Positions 6,629 through 18,995 of a stretch of 29,895 nt of DNA are shown here, piece by piece; the first letter of the stretch is position 1; each line of letters starts with the position of its first letter. The notes below the pieces were generated by a model. It did not search any database. It saw only the letters and a program-made list of their open reading frames with translations, and had not been told where the DNA came from. The stretch lies in the IMG/VR virus record IMGVR_UViG_3300025641_000026, positions 1 through 29,895 of that record. One strand, 5' to 3'. This DNA comes from a virus. Position numbers and translations under genes: made by a program.

Positions 6629-7402
6629 ATGAGCAAATATAGACGTAAAGAAGAGCTAGAGGCTGATACCTCTTACTCTGAAGAATTGGAAGCACAGGTA
6701 GCTGTAGATTCTGAACCCAAAGAGCCTGAAGAGGCTTCCTTTAAAAAACGGTATGGAGACCTTCGGCGTCACACCCAACAGTTGATGTCCCAGAAGGATC
6801 AAGAGCTAGAGAAGCTGAAGTCACAGCTTGATAGCGCCGCAAAGGGCCAGATCAAATTTCCCAAGACTGATGAGGAAATTGAGCAATGGACGAACAAGTA
6901 TCCTGATGTTGCGAAGATCGTAGACACTATTGCACGGAAACGTGCCAATGAAGCTCTTGAAGAAGGCGAGAAGCGTTTAGGTCATCTGAAGGATTTGGAG
7001 ACTAAACTCACTAAAAAAGAAGCAGAGCAACAGCTAATGAAGCTGCATCCTGACTTCAACGAGATCCGGCAAGACCCAGCCTTCCACGAATGGGTAGCCA
7101 TGCAGCCACTGTACATCAATGATGCTCTGTATAAGAACAACACAGATGCCATGGCCGCAGCCCGTGCAATCGACTTGTACAAGGCAGACACCGGTAAGCG
7201 TAAGACTTCCTCAAAGAAGTCGGCAGCACAGGCAGTAGGTCGATCAACCTCTGCAACACCGGCGGCTACGGGAAAAGCTAAGTTTAGCGAAAGCCAAGTA
7301 GCTCGTATGTCTGATCGTGAGTACGATGTTAATGAGGAAGCAATCCTTGAAGCCATGAAGGCAGGTGCATTTACCTACGACATGACCGGCGGCGCACGTT
7401 AA
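6629..7402 (+). CDS. Capsid scaffolding protein (probable)
   Basis: A 257-aa, highly charged, mostly helical protein immediately before the major capsid gene, the standard slot for phage scaffolds. The N-terminal third is acidic (EELEADTSYSEELEAQ). It is followed by coiled-coil-like heptads (LMSQKDQELEKLKSQLDSA; HLKDLETKLTKKEAEQQL). A lysine/serine/alanine-rich linker (GKRKTSSKKSAAQAVGRS) precedes a C-terminal helix with basic and acidic residues (AKFSESQVARMSDREYDVNEEA), which could be the coat-binding end. There is no signal peptide or membrane segment. The start at 6629 is supported by AGAGGA about seven bases upstream. A scaffold assembles the procapsid and leaves before DNA packaging. 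The call comes from context and composition; scaffolds are poorly conserved in sequence. Confidence 0.78.
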   Translation: MSKYRRKEELEADTSYSEELEAQVAVDSEPKEPEEASFKKRYGDLRRHTQQLMSQKDQELEKLKSQLDSAAKGQIKFPKTDEEIEQWTNKYPDVAKIVDTIARKRANEALEEGEKRLGHLKDLETKLTKKEAEQQLMKLHPDFNEIRQDPAFHEWVAMQPLYINDALYKNNTDAMAAARAIDLYKADTGKRKTSSKKSAAQAVGRSTSATPAATGKAKFSESQVARMSDREYDVNEEAILEAMKAGAFTYDMTGGAR

Positions 7403-7430
7403 CTAAATGGCAGTCCTAGCAAATTAACTA

Positions 7431-7458
7431 TTGACAAAATGAGCAATACTTATATGCT
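7431..7458 (+). promoter_or_regulatory. Candidate sigma70 promoter P1 for capsid gene
   Basis: A perfect -35 TTGACA (7431-7436) is followed after 16 bases by TATGCT (7453-7458), which matches the TATAAT consensus at four of six positions. It lies in the AT-rich non-coding gap after the scaffold gene and points to the capsid gene. It would give the capsid transcription independent of the upstream head genes. Pattern seen; activity inferred. Confidence 0.55.
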
Positions 7459-7481
7459 AGGGCTGTCCCTACTAGGGGCAG

Positions 7482-7512
7482 GTTATAGTAATAGCTATTT
7501 ACTAACTATAAC
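7482..7512. promoter_or_regulatory. Palindromic operator-like element
   Basis: GTTATAGT (7482-7489) and its exact inverse complement ACTATAAC (7505-7512) flank a perfect ten-base palindrome AATAGCTATT (7490-7499). The element lies between the two candidate capsid promoters and overlaps the -35 of the second. Nested dyads in a promoter are typical of repressor or activator sites. The AT-rich make-up raises the chance of coincidence, and no regulator gene is visible in the window. Confidence 0.4.
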
Positions 7513-7526
7513 AAACGTGCTATACT
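7498..7526 (+). promoter_or_regulatory. Candidate sigma70 promoter P2 for capsid gene
   Basis: A -35 of TTTACT (7498-7503), a 17-base spacer and a -10 of TATACT (7521-7526) that matches TATAAT in five of six positions. TGC directly before the -10 gives an extended -10. The expected start point, near 7533, would leave a leader of about 280 bases before the capsid ATG. The -10 context GTGCTATACT is almost repeated at the promoter near 20266. Confidence 0.6.
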
Positions 7527-7532
7527 TATTAT

Positions 7533-7812
7533 ATCAAGCAAACTTCTACCTGTCTTATTACATAAGATAGCTACGAGATTGTTTAGATGATCTCTCACAA
7601 ACCAGAGCCTCTTTTAAAGACTACCTCTTAGTTTGTTACTACCTTCAGAAGAATTAAGAATTTTAGTCTACCAGTGTGGTATGGCCCGTAGTTTTGTATC
7701 ATGGCCTGATACATCTTGTACGCACCCATAACATAAACACTGCCACTTAATAATTCCCTTCTGTCTTGTCTGTCGGCTAGTCCGACCTGCCATTTCACAA
7801 GGAGATATTACA
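7533..7812 (+). other. Long capsid mRNA leader with hairpins
   Basis: About 280 bases between the inferred P2 start and the capsid ATG hold no convincing gene or tRNA. Several short inverted repeats are visible: GAGAT/ATCTC (7575-7594), AGACTA/TAGTCT (7618-7669), a perfect seven-base stem TGTATCA/TGATACA with a five-base loop (7695-7713), and GTCGG/CCGAC in the last 45 bases. A strong ribosome binding site AAGGAG (7799-7804) ends eight bases before the ATG. The leader may stabilise the capsid mRNA; that function is inferred. Confidence 0.5.
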
Positions 7813-9108
7813 ATGGCTTTTCCATCAGCGGGTGGGTACACAAACCTCCCAAACGGTAACTTTTCACCAGTTATCTATTCTAAGAAAGTCCAAAAGGCTT
7901 TCCGTAACTCTTCAGTAGTAGAAGATATTACTAACACTGACTATGCTGGCGAAATCGCCAACATGGGAGATTCCGTTTAAATTCAATACTTTGGCGGCTT
8001 TCAGGAGTGATCCTGATCGAAGAACTCTGTGAATTGCTGGGACATCTCTATGAGACAATCAGCAGCCAAGCCCTTAAACGGGAAGGTTCAACGACTATCC
8101 AGAAATGGAGTAGAGCCAAGCGGCTCGAAGCGCAGAGCATCCCTAGCGGATGGTGATATAGTCTGATCTGCATGGCGACATGTAGCGGCTCGAAAGAGCG
8201 GGGCAAAAACTAGCGACTTTGCCTGAACATAATGCAAAATTATCAAAGAACCCGAAATCTCAATCAACTCTTATTCCCGTGGCGTTACGCTTGCGACACA
8301 AGACTTGCAAGATGCTGATTTTACTATGGTTGTTGACCAAGCAAACTACTTCCAGTTTGCATTGGATGACATCGAAGAAGCGCATTCCCATGTTTCGTTC
8401 ATGGACCTCGCAACAGACCGTGCTGGTTTCAAACTACGTGACGCATTTGACCAAGACGTTCTGGGCTACATGTCCGGTTACACATGGAACGGTTCTGCAT
8501 GGGTTGCTCGTACAGCCGCTGCAGGTACTAAATCAAATGCAGCAGCAGGCGCAGACGAATTGCTGGCAGCTAACAAGCTGACACAGGGCGTCTTCGGTGG
8601 TGCCACCGCAGCTAACTCCATTCCTGTAACTGCAGGTGGCGGTACTGGTGCTTTGACTTCGCCTTTGGCTGTTCTGAACCGCATGGCTCGTCTTATGGAC
8701 GCAGCTAACGTGGACACAGATGGTCGCTGGATCGTTGTAGACCCTGTCTTCAAAGAGATCCTGATGGACGAAGATGCGAAGCTGATTAACGCTGACTTCG
8801 GTGGTGATTCAGAAGTACGCAATGGTCGCCTTCCCGGCACCATCCGTGGCTTCCGTGTATATCAGTCCAACAACCTTCCTTACAAAGGTACAGGCGCTGG
8901 TACATCTGCCGCTGCAGGTTCTGCAACTAACTTTGGTGTTCTGGTCGCAGGCCATGACTCCGCAGCCGCAGTAGCTGACCAGATTGCGAAAACTGAGAGC
9001 TTCCGCTCACCAGACACATTCGCAGACATCGTTCGGGGCATGCAGCTCTATGGGAGAAAAATCCTTCGCCCAGAAGGACTTATCACTGCAAACTACAACT
9101 TAGCCTAA
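7813..9108 (+). CDS. Major capsid protein, split by a group I intron: join 7813-7976, 8235-9108
   Basis: Builds the icosahedral shell. Exon 1 encodes 54 codons plus two bases and ends in GDSV. Exon 2 supplies the third base of the Val codon and continues with KIIKEPEISI. Joined, they give one 345-aa protein of normal capsid length. The text across the join (GDSV-KIIKEPEISINSY) reads like the start of an E-loop in HK97-fold coat proteins, and exon 2 continues with LATQDLQDADFTMVVDQANY and a C-terminal region ending LYGRKILRPEGLITANY. The gene follows the scaffold, has its own promoters, a strong AAGGAG site and a trailing hairpin, all fitting a very highly expressed protein. Reading on without splicing meets TAA at 7978-7980. 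An accidental frameshift is ruled out by the full intron structure between the halves. The fold assignment is by pattern recognition. Confidence 0.93.
7977..8234 (+). ncRNA. Group I self-splicing intron in the capsid gene (IA-like, no homing endonuclease)
   Basis: A 258-base intron. P1: exon CCGT (7973-7976) pairs with GCGG (7994-7997), with the required U-G pair at the splice site. P10: exon 2 CAAA (8235-8238) pairs with TTTG (7990-7993). P2: TCAGGA/TCCTGA with a GTGA loop (8001-8016). P3: CTCTGTG (8025-8031) with CGCAGAG (8131-8137). P4: in the P element AATTGCTGGGA (8032-8042) and Q element AATCAGCAGCC (8057-8067). P7: GACTAT (8093-8098) with ATAGTC (8158-8163), the guanosine-binding helix. 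P8: CATCC/GGATG (8138-8152). Two extra hairpins between P7 and P3 (CCA-GAAA-TGG; GAGCC/GGCTC) suggest subgroup IA. P9-region hairpins have GCGA and GAAA loops. The intron ends in G8234. It has no room for an endonuclease gene. Confidence 0.95.
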
Positions 9109-9117
9109 TGGTTAAGC

Positions 9118-9139
9118 GGGGGCAGGGAAACTTGCCCCC
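9118..9139 (+). terminator. Strong hairpin after capsid gene, partial terminator
   Basis: GGGGGCA (9118-9124) pairs perfectly with TGCCCCC (9133-9139) around an eight-base loop, ten bases after the capsid stop. The downstream sequence AACACCCTTCTTT has only a weak T run. It probably terminates part of the transcripts, or protects the 3' end of the capsid mRNA, while allowing read-through to the tail genes. Confidence 0.6.
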
Positions 9140-9163
9140 AACACCCTTCTTTAAGGATCATCC

Positions 9164-9853
9164 ATGCCTAGTACTTACCTAGATTTATGTAACATGGTGC
9201 TTCGCCGCATCAATGAGGTAGAGATCGCCGCCGATGATTTTTCATCGGTTCGTGGCGTTCAGGCTTTGGTTAAAGATGCGGTCAAGGCCGCTATTGCCAA
9301 AATCAATCAGGCTGAGTTTGAATGGCCCTTTAATGCTTCTGAGCATACACAGGTTTTAACACCCGGTCGTACAGAATACGATTGGCCTGATTATTTTAAG
9401 ATTGCCGACTTTAATACTTTTCAGATCCAGAAGGACAGTTCTTTAGGCACAAGCTTTAAAACCTTAAAAGCTATTGAGCGTGATGAATGGTATTCTCAAC
9501 ACCGGGACAGTGACTACGAGGCAGGTGCCACAGGTCGGTCCCTTCCTGATTATGTATTCCCATCACACGGCACAGGCTTTGGTGTATCACCATCACCGGA
9601 CAAGGCGTACAGTGTGCGCTTTCGGTATTATCTGAACTACGCCGACCTTACAGCTTACAGCGATGTATCCCGCATCCCAGCCAGTTTCGATACCGTTATT
9701 GTGGATGGTGCTTTGTACCACCTGTACATGTTTAAGGATAACCTAGAGGCCGCTAATGCAGCCTACAGTGCTTTCCAAGCAGGTCTTAAAGATCTGCAGA
9801 CCCTATTCATCAACAGCTACGAATACATCCGTGATACAAGGATCAATTTCTAA
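9164..9853 (+). CDS. Head-tail adaptor / tail tubular protein A-like
   Basis: A 229-aa protein that resembles podovirus adaptors (T7 gp11 / P22 gp4 functional class). Adaptors add to the portal after packaging and carry the tail nozzle. Visible features are an N-terminal helical part (LCNMVLRRINEVEI; VKDAVKAAIAKINQAEFEWPFN), a central beta-rich part (VLTPGRTEYDWPDYF; VRFRYYLNYADL) and a C-terminal helix pair (VIVDGALYHLYMFKDNLEAANAAYSAFQAGLKDL, split by a short turn). The start has AAGGA nearby and follows the post-capsid hairpin. The stop overlaps the next gene as TAATG. The family call is from overall pattern and position between capsid and nozzle; no catalytic motif is expected. Confidence 0.8.
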   Translation: MPSTYLDLCNMVLRRINEVEIAADDFSSVRGVQALVKDAVKAAIAKINQAEFEWPFNASEHTQVLTPGRTEYDWPDYFKIADFNTFQIQKDSSLGTSFKTLKAIERDEWYSQHRDSDYEAGATGRSLPDYVFPSHGTGFGVSPSPDKAYSVRFRYYLNYADLTAYSDVSRIPASFDTVIVDGALYHLYMFKDNLEAANAAYSAFQAGLKDLQTLFINSYEYIRDTRINF

Positions 9854-11493: not shown

Positions 11494-14400
11494 ATGGCCG
11501 GTTACACACGCCAATCAGTAGCAGATATTGTTAACGGTGCAGATATTACTGCACCACCGCTCAATGCTGAATTTAACCAACTACGAAACGCCTTTGATGC
11601 TACTGGCGGTCACTCACACGATGGCAGTGCAGGTAATGCCCCTGCAATCAATCTACAGACCTCTGTTGGTGGCTATTTATTACCTATAAATGGTGGTGTC
11701 GGCGGTAAGAATAACGTCACGGCAACTTCAGACCCTACACTAACCGATGACGTAGCTGATGGTTATGCACCGGGATCACTTTGGTTAAACAACAATACCA
11801 ATCGTGCTTTTGTCTGCATAAATAATATAAGCTCCAGTGCAATTTGGCATGAAGTTGTTTTGCAATCCGCTACTTCAATAACTCCGGTAACTACAAATAC
11901 GGTAGACGTTGGCACTACGGTATCTAGATACAAAAACGTGTTTCTTACGGGTGGGGTAGATTCTACAGGTACTTCTACCTTCGCTACTGTAGATATTAAT
12001 GGCGGTAACATTGACGGTACTGTTATTGGTTCTGCTACCCCTGCCGCTGCTGACTTCACTACAATGGACACTACAGGTAACGCATCTGTAGGCGGTACGT
12101 TTAATGTAACAGGTACGTCTACCTTCACAGGTGCTATGTCTGCAGGTAGCCTTACCACTACAGGAAACTCTACCCACGCTACAGTAGACATTAACGGCGG
12201 TGCTATTGATGGCACTACTATTGGTGCTTCCTCTGCAGCCGCAGGTACATTCACTACAGTAACGACTACAGGTCAGGCTACTCTGGCAACTGCTGACATT
12301 AACGGTGGTACTATTGATGGTTCAGTTATTGGTGGTGCAACTCCACAAGCTGTAACAGGTACAACGATCACAGCTAACACAGGCTTTACTGGTGCGCTTA
12401 CAGGCAATGTCACAGGTAACGTAACAGGTAATCTTACAGGTGATGTAACTGGAGATGTAACAGGTGATCTGACTGGGAATGTTACAGCTTCTACAGGTAC
12501 AACAACTCTGAATGACCTTGTAGTTAATGGTACTGTAGACTTCACAAGTACAGCCCTGCTTAACGTAAGTGATCCTACTGCTCCACAACACGCTGCTACG
12601 AAGAGCTATGTAGACACTGCAGATGCACTCAAGCTGGACAAAGCTGGCGGTACGATGTCTGGTGACATCACTATGGGTGGTAATACAGTTACTGGTCTCG
12701 GTACGCCCAGCGCCACATCTGATGCTGCAACTAAGGGTTATGTAGATACAGAAGTAGCTGCACTTGTTGACGCTGCACCCGGTACACTAGACACACTAAA
12801 TGAATTAGCTGCAGCTTTGGGTGATGACCCAGACTTTGCTACAACGATTACAGATAGTATTGCGACTAAGCTGCCCCTTGCTGGTGGCACAATGACTGGC
12901 GACATTACTATGGGCGCTAATGCAGTTACATCGACTGCAGCACCTACTACAGATGATGAACTTACTCGTAAGGGTTATGTAGATACACAAGATGCACTGA
13001 AGCTAAACCTGTCTGGTGGAACCATGTCGGGTGCTATTGCTATGGGTACATCTAAGGTTACTGGCTTGGGTGATCCAACAGCTAACCAAGATGCAGCTAC
13101 TAAATTGTACACTGACACACAGGATGCTACTAAGCTGAACCTGTCTGGTGGTACTATGACTGGTGACATTGTACTAGGTTCTAACAAGGCTACCTCTACA
13201 GCTACACCTACAGCTAACGATGACCTGACACGCAAGGGTTACGTTGATGGTATTCTTGGTTCAGCTACTGCTGCCTCTGCTAGTGCCGCTGCTGCCGCTA
13301 CTTCAGCTAGTAATGCTGCAACAAGCGAGACTAACGCAGGTAACTCTGCCGCTGCAGCTGCTGCATCTTATGATGACTTCGATGATCGTTACCTTGGTGC
13401 TAAGTCTTCTGCTCCTACCACAGACAACGATGGTGATGCACTTGTAACTGGTGCTTTGTATTGGAACACTACAAGTGATGAACTGTACGTCTGGGATGGT
13501 AGCAACTGGCAACAGGGTAGCTTCACTGCAGGGTCTTTGCTTGCTAACGTCATTGAGGATACTACACCACAGCTAGGCGGTGACCTAGACCTTAACGGTT
13601 CTGACATTACAGGTACTGGTGCTATTGATATTACTGGTACTGTGTCTGCTGGTGCAGTTACTTACACAGCTACAGATGGTACAACAGGGCAGTTCCTGCA
13701 GACAGATGGTGCAGGTAACACTATCTTTGCATCTGTAGCATCCCCTAGCATTAATAACCTAAGCGATGGTTACTATGTAAGTGACTCCCTTGGTCTCGGT
13801 ACTGATGCTTTAGCTAATGACGATGGCTCAAATAACGAGAATACGGCTGTTGGTTTTCAAGCAGGTAAGTTCACTACTTCGGGCTCTGGGAACTCCTTCT
13901 ATGGTGTTAACGCAGGTTTAGGTAACACTACTGCCAGCTACAATGTAGCTGTCGGAAAAAATACCTCTTATCGTAACCAAACAGGGCAACATAACGTAGC
14001 AATTGGTTTTTCTACACTATTAGGTACATCGGGACAATCCCACAGTTTTAACACTGCCATCGGAGCTTACTCGGGTCATGACACTACTACTGGTAGTAGG
14101 AATAGTACTCTAGGCTATGAAACATTATTTTATAACCAAACAGGTGCAGAAAACGTAGCAGTAGGCCATAAAGCACTTAGGGGTGCATCAGGACAATCCC
14201 ACAGTAACAACACCGCTATTGGTTATCAAGCTGGTTACCTTACTACTACTGGCTCTGGAAACTTTTTTGGTGGTTGGAACTCAGGTTTCAGCAATACTAC
14301 AGGTAGCGAGAATACTTTTTTAGGTAGACAATCTGGTGGCAGCAATACTACAGGTTCCAGTAACTCCTTCATCGGCTATCAAGCTGGTTACGCCAGCAGT

Positions 14401-17400
14401 TCAGGCAACTACAATGTTGCTCTTGGCTACACTGCGCTAGCGAGTAACACCACAGGTAACTCCAATGTTGCTACGGGTCGTGAGGCTCTTCGGTATAACA
14501 CTTACGGGCAGCAGAATAGTGCGTTTGGTGACCAATCATTGCTCTCCAATACTACGGGTGATTACAACGTAGCCGTTGGTACGCAGTCCCTTCGGTATAA
14601 CACTACGGCTGATAACAACGTAGCCGTTGGTCATGCCGCTCTCCGTTTCACCACTACAGGCAATAGCAACGTAGCCGTTGGTACTTCCGCACTATATGGC
14701 GCTGTTGGTAACTCCCACAGCAGCAACACTGCTATTGGTTATGAAGCTGGTTATGGTATCACCACAGGCAGCAACAACTTCTTCGGAGGCTATCAAGCTG
14801 GTCGGGGTAACACTACAGGCATAGACAACACCACCGTAGGCTATAGGGCTGGATACACTAACACCACTGGTGAGCGCAATACAGCTGTGGGTAGCGGCGC
14901 TCTTTATCTTAACACCACAGGGTCGTACAACACCGCTTTTGGTCGTGATGCTTTATTGTTAAACACAACAGGTATCAACAATACAGCTATAGGCTACCAA
15001 GCTGGTAATGATGTCACCACAGGTAGCAACAACTTATTTGCGGGTTACAAAGCAGGTGAAAGCGTTACGACAGGGAATACGAATGTTGCACTAGGCCAGC
15101 AAGCCTTGCGTAACAACCAAACAGGCATCGCTAACATTTCCATAGGCCAAGACTCTTTGTCTAACGCAAGTAACACGGCTGCTTCTTTCAACGTAGCTAT
15201 TGGTCAAGCTGCTGGTGACGCACTAACTACTGGTAGTGAGAATATCATTATTGGCTTTGGGGCTGACGCATCCTCCGCCACAGTATCCAACGAAATCACC
15301 CTCGGCAACAGTAGCATCACACGCTTTCGCATACCGGGTATTGGCTTGGATTGGACTTCTGTTCCAGCCGCTGGTGCTACCGATATAGACGGACTTACTG
15401 ATGGTTATGCTGCAGGTAACTCTGTTGGTCTTGGTTCAGGTGCATTAGGTAACGATGACGGTTCTGCTAACAACAACACCGCTGTTGGAACTACTGCTTT
15501 AAATCAAGTAGTTACGTCCACAAACAACACGGCCATTGGGTTTGACGCTGGACGCCAAGTCACAACAGGTTCCCAAAACCTTTTTGCCGGGGCTGCGGCT
15601 GGAAGGGGACACACTACTGGTATTAACACCACAATGGTTGGGCCTTACGCAGGGTACTTTAATAACGGTTCATATAACGTGGGCTTGGGTCACTCCGCAT
15701 TGTTTAATGCTACCGGGGCAAACAACGTTGGCCTTGGTTATCAAGCTGGATACGCTATTACTAGCGGTAATAATTTAACAGCCCTTGGACACAGTGCTTT
15801 AAAAAGTGCAACAACTATAACAACTGGCGTGGCTATTGGACAAGGTGCAGGTCAAAATACCACTACGGGTGGTGAAAACGTATTTGTGGGCAACCAACCC
15901 GGCTACAATAATACAACCGGAAGTAGTAATACTTCCATCGGCTACATCGCCATGTACAACAACCAGACAGGTGGAAGTAACGTAGCTGTAGGCTCATACG
16001 CCTTACAGGGTGCATCAGGTCAATCCAACTGGCGCAACACTGCCATTGGCTATGAAGCTGGTAAGGCTATTACTACAGGAAACAGAAACTTCTTTGGGGG
16101 CTGGCAGTCAGGGATAGCCAACACTACTGGCGCCTACAATGTTGCCGTGGGTGAGAGAGCTATGAGTGGTAACACCACTGGGACTAGCAATATAGTCCTA
16201 GGCTCTCAGGCTATGGCAAATAATAGTACAGGTAGCTACAACATAGCTATTGGTGAGGGTTCTTTATGGGGTGCATCAGGGCAATCCCACAATAACAACA
16301 CTGCTATTGGGTATCGATCTGGTTATAGTGTTACTACAGGAGGCCAAAACTTTTTCGGTGGTGCTAATGCTGGTTATAATACTACTACAGGTGGCACTAA
16401 CGTCTTACTGGGAGCTTATGCTGGTTACAACAACACTACAGGCGGTAGCAATACTTTTTTGGGTTACCAAGCAGGTAATAGCAACACCACGGCCCAAAAT
16501 AACTTCTTTGGTGGTATGCAGTCTGGCTTTAGTAACACAACAGGTACCTCCAATGTTTCAATAGGTTTAACGTCTTCATACTACAACCAAACAGGCCTAG
16601 GTAATACAGCAGTAGGTTATGAGTCGCTAAAAGGTGCCTCTGGTAACTCCCACAGCAACAACACTGCCATTGGCTCTCAAGCTGGTAAGGGCATTACCAC
16701 AGGTGTCTCTAACTTCTTTGGTGGTAGTTCTGCTGGTTTTGCTAATACTACTGGCGAGTATAATGTAGCTGTTGGTACTTATTCTCTTAATACAAACACA
16801 ACAGGTTCTAGGAACCATGCACTAGGTGGTCGTGCTTTATATCTAAACACTACAGGTACGGACAACATAGCTGTTGGTTATAACTCACTAGAGGAAAACA
16901 CTACAGGTCGTTACAACGTAGCTTCAGGTGGTTCTGCCCTTAGGAATAACACTACAGCTTGGTACAACACGGCTATTGGGTATCAGTCTGGCACTAGTAA
17001 CACCACAGGCCAAAGACATACTTATTTAGGTTATCAAGCGGGTTACAGTTCTACAACGGGCACTGACAACACTTTTCTGGGCTATTACGCTGGCCGTAGT
17101 ACCACTACAGGTTTTGACAACGTTTTTATCGGCGCTGAAGCGGGGGATAGTACCACTACTCTTTCTCAGTCTGTTGCAGTAGGCGCACAAGCTGGGCGGA
17201 ATTACACAGGAGCAAACGGTTATGTTGCTGTAGGTTATAACGCCTTTGGCGGCACAGGTGGTATGGTTGAAAGCGTAGGGGTCGGTTCTAATGCTGGTGG
17301 TCTTATGACTAGTGGACAATGGAACGTCTTCCTAGGCCACAATGTGGCGAGCAACCGTGCTGGTGGGGGTAGCAATATTGCTATAGGATACTTAGCAGGG

Positions 17401-17901
17401 GCAACAAGCGGTGCGACAGGTTCGAACAACGTCTTTATCGGTGACCGTGCGGGGTATAATAGCAATACAGGCTCCAACAACATTCTTATAGGAAATGAGC
17501 CTTCAAGTTCATCCAATTCAGTCTCCAACGAAATTACCCTCGGTAACAACACCATCACACGCTTCCGTATCCCCGGTGCAGGTATTGACAACACAAGTGC
17601 TGCACTCTCAGGTACTACGCCAAGTGTAGACACAGGTGATCGTGACACATACACGCTGACTACAAGTGGTAACACTACGTTCACCTTCACAGGCGCACCT
17701 TCGTCAGGTCAAGTAGGTACGTTCAGTCTTATCATTACGGCTGGTGGTACGCACACACTCACATGGCCTGCATCTGTTAAGTGGGCTGGTGGTACTGCAC
17801 CTGATGCACCTGCTAGTGGCGAGATTGACATCTATACGTTCACTTCCATCAACGGTGGTACTACTTGGTATGGCTTCCTAGCTGGGGATGCAATGGCATG
17901 A
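11494..17901 (+). CDS. Giant repeat-built tail fiber, YadA-head-like
   Basis: A 2135-aa receptor-binding fiber, started after AGGAAGG. In order: an N-terminal virion-attachment region with GGHSHDG; DINGG-x-IDG repeats (about residues 165-290); seven GN/D-V/L-T repeats (304-331); about four GTM-x-GDI...TKGYVD repeats (to ~585); an Ala/Ser-rich coiled part; and a DDFDDRYLGAKSSAPTTDNDG domain familiar from podovirus fibers. Two large beta-roll modules follow (756-1282 and 1301-2028), made of NTTGxxNxAxGxxA units like the heads of YadA-type trimeric adhesins, each ending in SNEITLGN..ITRFRIPG. A short beta-rich tip (TLTTSGNTTFTFTG to the end) is probably the receptor-contacting domain. Unlike many such fibers it has no C-terminal S74 chaperone. 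It probably forms a trimer (inference from the repeat type). Confidence 0.9.
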   Translation: MAGYTRQSVADIVNGADITAPPLNAEFNQLRNAFDATGGHSHDGSAGNAPAINLQTSVGGYLLPINGGVGGKNNVTATSDPTLTDDVADGYAPGSLWLNNNTNRAFVCINNISSSAIWHEVVLQSATSITPVTTNTVDVGTTVSRYKNVFLTGGVDSTGTSTFATVDINGGNIDGTVIGSATPAAADFTTMDTTGNASVGGTFNVTGTSTFTGAMSAGSLTTTGNSTHATVDINGGAIDGTTIGASSAAAGTFTTVTTTGQATLATADINGGTIDGSVIGGATPQAVTGTTITANTGFTGALTGNVTGNVTGNLTGDVTGDVTGDLTGNVTASTGTTTLNDLVVNGTVDFTSTALLNVSDPTAPQHAATKSYVDTADALKLDKAGGTMSGDITMGGNTVTGLGTPSATSDAATKGYVDTEVAALVDAAPGTLDTLNELAAALGDDPDFATTITDSIATKLPLAGGTMTGDITMGANAVTSTAAPTTDDELTRKGYVDTQDALKLNLSGGTMSGAIAMGTSKVTGLGDPTANQDAATKLYTDTQDATKLNLSGGTMTGDIVLGSNKATSTATPTANDDLTRKGYVDGILGSATAASASAAAAATSASNAATSETNAGNSAAAAAASYDDFDDRYLGAKSSAPTTDNDGDALVTGALYWNTTSDELYVWDGSNWQQGSFTAGSLLANVIEDTTPQLGGDLDLNGSDITGTGAIDITGTVSAGAVTYTATDGTTGQFLQTDGAGNTIFASVASPSINNLSDGYYVSDSLGLGTDALANDDGSNNENTAVGFQAGKFTTSGSGNSFYGVNAGLGNTTASYNVAVGKNTSYRNQTGQHNVAIGFSTLLGTSGQSHSFNTAIGAYSGHDTTTGSRNSTLGYETLFYNQTGAENVAVGHKALRGASGQSHSNNTAIGYQAGYLTTTGSGNFFGGWNSGFSNTTGSENTFLGRQSGGSNTTGSSNSFIGYQAGYASSSGNYNVALGYTALASNTTGNSNVATGREALRYNTYGQQNSAFGDQSLLSNTTGDYNVAVGTQSLRYNTTADNNVAVGHAALRFTTTGNSNVAVGTSALYGAVGNSHSSNTAIGYEAGYGITTGSNNFFGGYQAGRGNTTGIDNTTVGYRAGYTNTTGERNTAVGSGALYLNTTGSYNTAFGRDALLLNTTGINNTAIGYQAGNDVTTGSNNLFAGYKAGESVTTGNTNVALGQQALRNNQTGIANISIGQDSLSNASNTAASFNVAIGQAAGDALTTGSENIIIGFGADASSATVSNEITLGNSSITRFRIPGIGLDWTSVPAAGATDIDGLTDGYAAGNSVGLGSGALGNDDGSANNNTAVGTTALNQVVTSTNNTAIGFDAGRQVTTGSQNLFAGAAAGRGHTTGINTTMVGPYAGYFNNGSYNVGLGHSALFNATGANNVGLGYQAGYAITSGNNLTALGHSALKSATTITTGVAIGQGAGQNTTTGGENVFVGNQPGYNNTTGSSNTSIGYIAMYNNQTGGSNVAVGSYALQGASGQSNWRNTAIGYEAGKAITTGNRNFFGGWQSGIANTTGAYNVAVGERAMSGNTTGTSNIVLGSQAMANNSTGSYNIAIGEGSLWGASGQSHNNNTAIGYRSGYSVTTGGQNFFGGANAGYNTTTGGTNVLLGAYAGYNNTTGGSNTFLGYQAGNSNTTAQNNFFGGMQSGFSNTTGTSNVSIGLTSSYYNQTGLGNTAVGYESLKGASGNSHSNNTAIGSQAGKGITTGVSNFFGGSSAGFANTTGEYNVAVGTYSLNTNTTGSRNHALGGRALYLNTTGTDNIAVGYNSLEENTTGRYNVASGGSALRNNTTAWYNTAIGYQSGTSNTTGQRHTYLGYQAGYSSTTGTDNTFLGYYAGRSTTTGFDNVFIGAEAGDSTTTLSQSVAVGAQAGRNYTGANGYVAVGYNAFGGTGGMVESVGVGSNAGGLMTSGQWNVFLGHNVASNRAGGGSNIAIGYLAGATSGATGSNNVFIGDRAGYNSNTGSNNILIGNEPSSSSNSVSNEITLGNNTITRFRIPGAGIDNTSAALSGTTPSVDTGDRDTYTLTTSGNTTFTFTGAPSSGQVGTFSLIITAGGTHTLTWPASVKWAGGTAPDAPASGEIDIYTFTSINGGTTWYGFLAGDAMA
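11986..12360 (+). repeat. DINGG fiber repeats (about three copies)
   Basis: Imperfect repeats of the pattern TVDINGGxIDGxxIG followed by an FTTxxTTG segment, near residues 165-290 of the fiber. Each begins with a DINGG turn. They probably form shaft beta-structure. The third copy is diverged and runs into the GNVT repeats. Confidence 0.7.
12403..12486 (+). repeat. 12-base coding minisatellite, seven units
   Basis: Seven contiguous 12-base units encode G(N/D)(V/L)T: three GN units, three GD units and a final GN unit. The units vary mainly at third codon positions and at the Asn/Asp and Val/Leu residues. Short tandem tetrapeptides of this kind form thin shaft segments in phage fibers. Copy number could change by slippage or recombination. 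Confidence 0.85.
12637..13250 (+). repeat. GTM/TKGYVD tail-fiber shaft repeats
   Basis: About four imperfect copies of the pattern GGTM(S/T)GxIxMGxxxVT followed by (D/E)x(A/T)(T/R)K(G/L)Y(V/T)D. The copies alternate between GLGxPxxxxDAATK and TSTAxPTxDDxLTRK variants, so they look like two interleaved subtypes. Repeats of this type are common in tail fiber shafts. Confidence 0.8.
13759..15339 (+). repeat. Fiber beta-roll module A
   Basis: Encodes fiber residues 756-1282. It opens with LSDGYYVSDSLGLGTDALANDDGS and closes with SNEITLGNSSITRFRIPG. In between are many 14-16-residue NTTGxxNxAVGxxAL units typical of left-handed beta-roll adhesin heads. The opening and closing motifs are repeated in module B. 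Confidence 0.85.
15394..17577 (+). repeat. Fiber beta-roll module B (diverged copy of A)
   Basis: Encodes fiber residues 1301-2028. It opens with LTDGYAAGNSVGLGSGALGNDDGS and closes with SNEITLGNNTITRFRIPG, paralleling module A but about 200 residues longer. The same unit repeats fill it, with several long GASGQSH-type insertions. Confidence 0.85.
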
Positions 17902-18995
17902 GTATGATTGGCTCTAATGATAAACTAAAACAAGCTGCGGCTGGAGCGGGTGGGGTAGTTAGAGAACAGGCTATTGCTTTTGCAGGTGGCGCTTCGTTTA
18001 AGATGTATGAATGGGTTCCCGGCACTGGATTTGGGTACGAGTATCCTACAACTAACCTTGGCTCTGCAACGACATACCGTAACGGTATAAAGTTTTCTAA
18101 TAATAAAGACGTTATGTTTAGAGCAAGTGCGGGTTCACCTTTTGCTCTTGCAAATGAGTTTAATATTAACACAGGCATAGGCTCGGCTTATTCTAACCCT
18201 TCTTCCATCATAACTGTATATGCCTATGGCGGTATCAGCGTAAATTCAAATGACACCGCTGTTATAGTCGGAGGTCAGATGAGTGGCGATGGACAGCCTA
18301 TCACGCAAGCGTGGGCGTGGAACACCTCTTCTGGTTTTGGGACTCGTTACTCTAATCCTGGTAGTCCTGCGCCAGATAACATGAATCCTAATATTTGTCA
18401 GCTTGACCCATATGACGCAAATGTACTTTTTGGAGTACGAAATAACGTTTCTGGTCATCCGTATTCTATTTTTAAATACACATGGTCTAACTCTTCTGGC
18501 TTTGGTTCAAAAACAACCTACACATCAATTAACATTGGAAGATGTTATGCTATAGAGTTTCACCCTAGCAAAAATTACGTTGTATTGGGAACAGGTAGTT
18601 CTGCAACTGCTAAATCTTATAGTTACAGTAGTTCTGGAATAGGGTCTCTTCAATCTACAGCCTCTGGAACTTTATCTGAAATAAACGATATTGCTTTTAA
18701 CTCTACTGGTTCAGTAGTAGCTGTTCCCGGCTATTCTAGCCCCTTTATTCATGTTTATAGTTACAGCAACGGGTCATTCGGTACAAAGTTTTCTAATCCG
18801 TCTAGTCTACCCGGTAATTACAGACAATCCGTAGAGTTTACTCCTGATGACGATGCTATTATTTGTGGAGGGGGTGGAGGCATAGATACCTATAATTGGT
18901 CTAACTCCTCTGGATTTGGCTCTAAAATAAGCAGTCCTTCAAATATTAACTTCCAAGTACAGTCCATGAAAGCAGTTAAGGTAGTAGCGCCATGA
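17898..18995 (+). CDS. Seven-repeat beta-propeller protein
   Basis: A 365-aa protein. The start at 17898 overlaps the fiber stop as ATGA; the longer reading from 17865 would lie inside the fiber and is less likely. Seven repeats share a closing signature of an aromatic strand followed by (S/T)G(F/I)G or SFG: PGTGFGYEYP, NTGIGSAYSNP, TSSGFGTRYSNP, SNSSGFGSKTTY, SSSGIGSLQST, SNGSFGTKFSNP and SNSSGFGSKISSP. Between them run WD40-like strand patterns such as AIEFHPSKNYVVLGTG and SVEFTPDDDAIICGGG. This predicts a seven-bladed propeller. Coupling to the fiber gene suggests a second receptor-binding or fiber-cap protein. No catalytic motif is visible, and host-surface binding is inference. Confidence 0.8.
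   Translation: MSMIGSNDKLKQAAAGAGGVVREQAIAFAGGASFKMYEWVPGTGFGYEYPTTNLGSATTYRNGIKFSNNKDVMFRASAGSPFALANEFNINTGIGSAYSNPSSIITVYAYGGISVNSNDTAVIVGGQMSGDGQPITQAWAWNTSSGFGTRYSNPGSPAPDNMNPNICQLDPYDANVLFGVRNNVSGHPYSIFKYTWSNSSGFGSKTTYTSINIGRCYAIEFHPSKNYVVLGTGSSATAKSYSYSSSGIGSLQSTASGTLSEINDIAFNSTGSVVAVPGYSSPFIHVYSYSNGSFGTKFSNPSSLPGNYRQSVEFTPDDDAIICGGGGGIDTYNWSNSSGFGSKISSPSNINFQVQSMKAVKVVAP

Follow-up and report, generated by a model that had tools for sequence, protein, structure and literature searches.

A 258-nt segment at positions 7977–8234 (plus strand) of the major capsid protein (MCP) gene analyzed here is, on present sequence evidence, almost certainly a group I intron that splices the capsid mRNA. 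Capsid-gene introns and multi-intron phage genes are already known; the repeated invasion of one capsid gene described below is the more interesting part. The confidence expressed here covers a splicing intron and not its route of movement. The window, i.e., the whole stretch of DNA that was analyzed, is an entire viral record from IMG/VR (29,895 bases) and is probably a fragment of the genome of an HMO-2011-type marine phage, whose relatives measure 53–55 kb.

The Rfam group I model RF00028 matches positions 7967–8185 of the plus strand over its full length (model positions 1–253; 80.2 bits, where 50 is the gathering score; E 4.2e-19), and this is the sole Rfam match across the window. A sequence-only reading had proposed the group I intron and had looked to this model for confirmation; the high-scoring, full-model match over the proposed span provides it. 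Splice sites were sought by taking every combination of a U-ending 5′ site and a G-ending 3′ site near the intron and scoring the rebuilt MCP. Cuts at 7976/7977 and 8234/8235 were selected without a near-tie, so that a U closes exon 1 and a G closes the intron, and these are the same sites that had been proposed earlier. Two helices uphold the choice: P1 (7973–7997, plus strand), in which CCGU (7973–7976) pairs with GCGG (7994–7997) and places a U-G pair at the 5′ splice site, and the 4-bp P10 (7990–8238, plus strand), in which UUUG (7990–7993) pairs with CAAA of exon 2 (8235–8238). The ORF check also revealed an in-frame TAA just within the intron (7978–7980, plus strand), ending at intron base 4. 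An early in-frame stop of this kind, 3–16 nt past the 5′ site, was present in all 47 MCP introns examined and is a described feature of group I introns (PMC3073962).

Exon 1 (7813–7976, plus strand) comprises codons 1–54 and two bases of codon 55, as established by translation and by tblastn to HMO-2011-type coat proteins. Exon 2 (8235–9108, plus strand, stop codon included) matches PHROG 267, major head protein (E 1.7e-44), and was likewise confirmed by translation. Joining 7976 to 8235 yields the anticipated 345-aa MCP with zero internal stops, its junction-spanning sequence being ...ANMGDSVKIIKEPE... Searched against the phage collection, the spliced protein scored best with the Roseobacter phage CRP-235 coat protein, to which it aligned without interruption across 345 residues at 87.4% identity, and other HMO-2011-type coat proteins rank next, again as one-piece matches. 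The coat proteins of CRP-235 and HMO-2011 are the same capsid protein as that of the window (87% and 55% identity, respectively), but their genes lack the intron. Since the longest listed ORF of the interrupted MCP gene covers only 267 of the 345 aa, gene callers will truncate intron-split capsid genes in viral metagenomes. Ahead of the MCP gene lie 410 bases without an assigned gene (7403–7812), with promoter-like matches at 7431–7458 and 7498–7526; five such matches were observed in 7380–9180, where 2.3 are expected by chance.

Secondary structure was assessed in an alignment of 29 distinct related introns from five MCP sites, with 71 drawn pairs and 1,988 cells. Standard pairs fill 95.0% of the cells, a percentage favored by drawing the structure on the window sequence and by the relatedness of the aligned introns. 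Both-sided changes occur in 40 of the 71 pairs, and the covariation score is 0.466 versus 0.056–0.123 for controls with slid partners. The double changes in P2, P3, P7.1, P7.2, P9, P9.1, and P9.2 far exceed both controls. All helices named in the sequence-only reading (P1–P4, P7, P8, the P9 region, and P10) are present.

All of the remaining helices are on the plus strand. P2 (CAGGA/UCCUG with a GUGA loop; 8002–8015) is 100% paired with double changes in four of five pairs. P3 (8025–8031 with 8131–8137) is likewise 100% paired and has four double-change pairs. P4 (8035–8040/8059–8064) and P5 (8045–8048/8052–8055) together occupy 8035–8064, where the alignment register differs in introns from other sites. 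P6 (8066–8067/8085–8086) and P6a (8071–8073/8080–8082) follow at 8066–8086, and in P6 a C-G pair is replaced by G-C, a double change, in 13 of 29 introns. P7 (8093–8098 with 8158–8163) is paired in 174 of 174 cells, with two double-change pairs. Between P7 and P3 are the hairpins P7.1 (8099–8101/8106–8108) and P7.2 (8113–8117/8122–8126), both 100% paired with double changes (8099–8126). P8 (8138–8152) is 87.6% paired, while P9, P9.1, and P9.2 (8168–8223) are 99–100% paired with 14 double-change pairs. A P3–P7 pseudoknotted core with P4–P6 and P8 is thus present, P4 and P8 being partly out of register at other sites. P1 is matched to its site, with a U-G pair, at each of the five insertion sites, and P10 is paired in 86% of cells with all sites pooled. 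By thermodynamic folding alone, the minimum-energy fold is barely better than that of shuffled sequences (z −1.32), which is unsurprising because the program cannot fully represent a pseudoknotted ribozyme.

The P7.1/P7.2 architecture, on which the assignment is made, points to subgroup IA (IA2-like). The td, nrdB, and sunY introns of phage T4 belong to subgroup IA2 and have the same P7.1/P7.2 architecture and an early in-frame stop. They interrupt nucleotide-metabolism genes, and some contain endonuclease ORFs.

The best reading of these features, and one that we hold with very high confidence from sequence, is standard two-step group I splicing, which would proceed in the cell as follows. 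Once the capsid operon is transcribed, a ribosome would translate exon 1 and halt at the TAA just within the intron. The RNA would fold P3–P9, with U7976 fixed as the 5′ site by the P1 guide helix. This site would then presumably be attacked by an exogenous guanosine held in P7, after which P10 would bring exon 2 into position for the step that follows at G8234, yielding an intact MCP mRNA. When a structural gene with high expression is interrupted by a self-splicing RNA, phage assembly requires that splicing be efficient.

The same intron was present at the same codon in three of 80 similar capsid loci. A pattern derived from its core retrieved 26 contigs, all with an MCP intron at codon 55, that of L093 being a chimera that begins at this codon. 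Besides the window, 25 contigs carry it at the same codon with exact boundaries and under different IMG/VR sample numbers; the intron in L097 and L102 is identical to that of the window, and near-identical copies occur in other contigs. The codon-55 intron is borne by two MCP lineages, ~53–56% and 92–100% identical to the exon 2 protein of the window. Between these lineages, DNA identity is 81–89% for introns versus 57–71% for exons (the exon 1 figure for L104 being confounded by a second intron), which suggests horizontal movement. Structural constraint instead of transfer could partly explain the higher intron identity.

Presence of the intron varies among close relatives, and those without it (81–92% DNA identity) read straight across the insertion site. 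A pattern-based sample of 80 IIKEPEI loci contained no introns at all; their frequency is low, and most related MCP loci lack the intron. In all intron-bearing alleles of site 55, exon 1 ends in CCGT (junction CCGT^C), and the exon thereby fits the guide sequence. Most close intronless relatives have AGTGT^T or AGCGT^T, and CCGT is found in 52 of 288 uninterrupted loci, a count in which some contigs figure twice and kinship is ignored. Either selection or co-conversion would have brought about the fit of exon to guide.

A second DNA pattern and Rfam were used to look for introns at further sites. A clade-B MCP protein query had retained only uninterrupted genes, as its ranking favors contiguous matches, and the DNA pattern was used for this reason. 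Related ORF-less introns were located at MCP codons 20, 51, 96, and 107, i.e., at least four sites besides 55. Site 96 was placed by hand from the reading frame in L216 and L218, and the cut at site 20 has a one-base ambiguity, with the U-G rule pointing to the later position. One capsid gene (L216:3848–4923) contains three group I introns, at codons 20, 96, and 107, and seven contigs (L104, L215, L218, L219, L221, L222, and L224) have two MCP introns each. In L093 (4829–5554), the 5′ half of a site-55 intron is fused to the 3′ half of an apparent site-96 intron and the intervening exon is absent, the product of either recombination between introns or misassembly. A distant MCP (28–31% identity) in L128, L117, and L133 is split after NTD, at about codon 44, by an insert that contains a LAGLIDADG_2 gene; the inserts of L128 and L117 match RF00028 at 31 and 36 bits, below the gathering score. 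For example, L128:4156–4975 is a distant capsid gene whose insert combines a weak group I match with a LAGLIDADG_2 endonuclease gene.

These distributions bear on other ways of reading the insertion. Persistence in an essential structural gene and recurrence at several sites would suit a splicing intron that is retained because it regulates late capsid expression as a switch, as opposed to a merely tolerated parasite; against this, presence varies among close relatives and most lack the intron, so a neutral or selfish element fits better and the switch is improbable. It is very improbable that the insertion is degenerate and non-splicing, the capsid gene broken, and the phage defective: this could draw on the intronless state of most related loci (none of 80 in the pattern-based sample with an intron), but both exons are open and in frame, compensatory change preserves the helices across 29 sequences, and identical or near-identical introns recur in other contigs. 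An assembly artefact fusing the capsid gene with a foreign intron is scarcely credible, for although L093, resembling a two-intron chimera that lacks an exon, indicates that such errors or recombination happen, the site and exact boundaries are repeated in 25 other contigs and P1 and P10 are site-specific.

How the splicing intron reached its sites is a separate matter. The window intron has no ATG ORF longer than 41 aa, and the ORF check found within it no homing endonuclease, as an autonomous homing intron would encode. No HNH or LAGLIDADG_2 homing endonuclease was found in the window, and no HNH_3, GIY-YIG, or LAGLIDADG_2 endonuclease in 19 intron-bearing records, all of them fragments. In other phages, related introns give two-piece matches with inserts, one of which is annotated as an HNH homing endonuclease; this insert and the LAGLIDADG gene of the distant MCP introns make endonuclease loss or action in trans plausible. 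As the intron lacks an endonuclease of its own, the most likely route of spread, held with about even confidence, would be recombination between co-infecting phages, aided by an endonuclease that either acts in trans or has been lost. More tentatively, and at a level of belief well short of even, HMO-2011-type marine phages may have, in the initial third of their MCP gene, a hotspot for the repeated establishment of endonuclease-less group I introns (five sites or more, with as many as three introns in one gene, and a sixth, LAGLIDADG site in distant MCPs), possibly via site-to-site transposition within the gene.

The intron had also been described as unusual, and the capsid gene location stands; the rest of that description gives way to precedents and to an intron that is not isolated. 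In mycobacteriophage LittleE (cluster J), a capsid intron was proven by RT-PCR and N-terminal sequencing, and the same paper cites lactococcal Tuc2009 as a further capsid-gene precedent (PMC3706429). Both LittleE and the window have a probable group I intron in the major capsid gene, with U at the exon end and G at the intron end. The LittleE intron is ~820 bp, contains a reverse-strand endonuclease ORF, and is spliced in infected cells, whereas that of the window is 258 nt and ORF-less, resides in an HMO-2011-type phage, and is predicted to splice. Several group I introns in a single phage gene are likewise known, from phage Twort, one gene of which has three (Landthaler and Shub 1999, as cited in PMC11878797), and from Bastillevirinae, whose DNA polymerase and terminase genes are multi-intron (PMC11878797). 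Those are other phages and other genes; here the MCP gene is repeatedly invaded, three times in L216, by ORF-less introns. No report of introns in HMO-2011-type capsid genes was found in the literature searched, whose coverage leaves out most subscription journals. The multi-site family offers a natural test of how small, endonuclease-less introns spread and of a possible attraction of such introns to capsid genes.

Two or three close-set group I introns were also seen in each of six contigs without this MCP (L129:880–1549, L132:1984–4120, L120:3353–4543, L124:8480–9686, L130:3772–4985, and L125:3283–4885). Elsewhere in the window, a 2135-aa ORF (11494–17901), upstream of the ORF at 17865–18995, has many degenerate TTG-S-N-type repeats, and its product looks like a tail-fibre-type protein.
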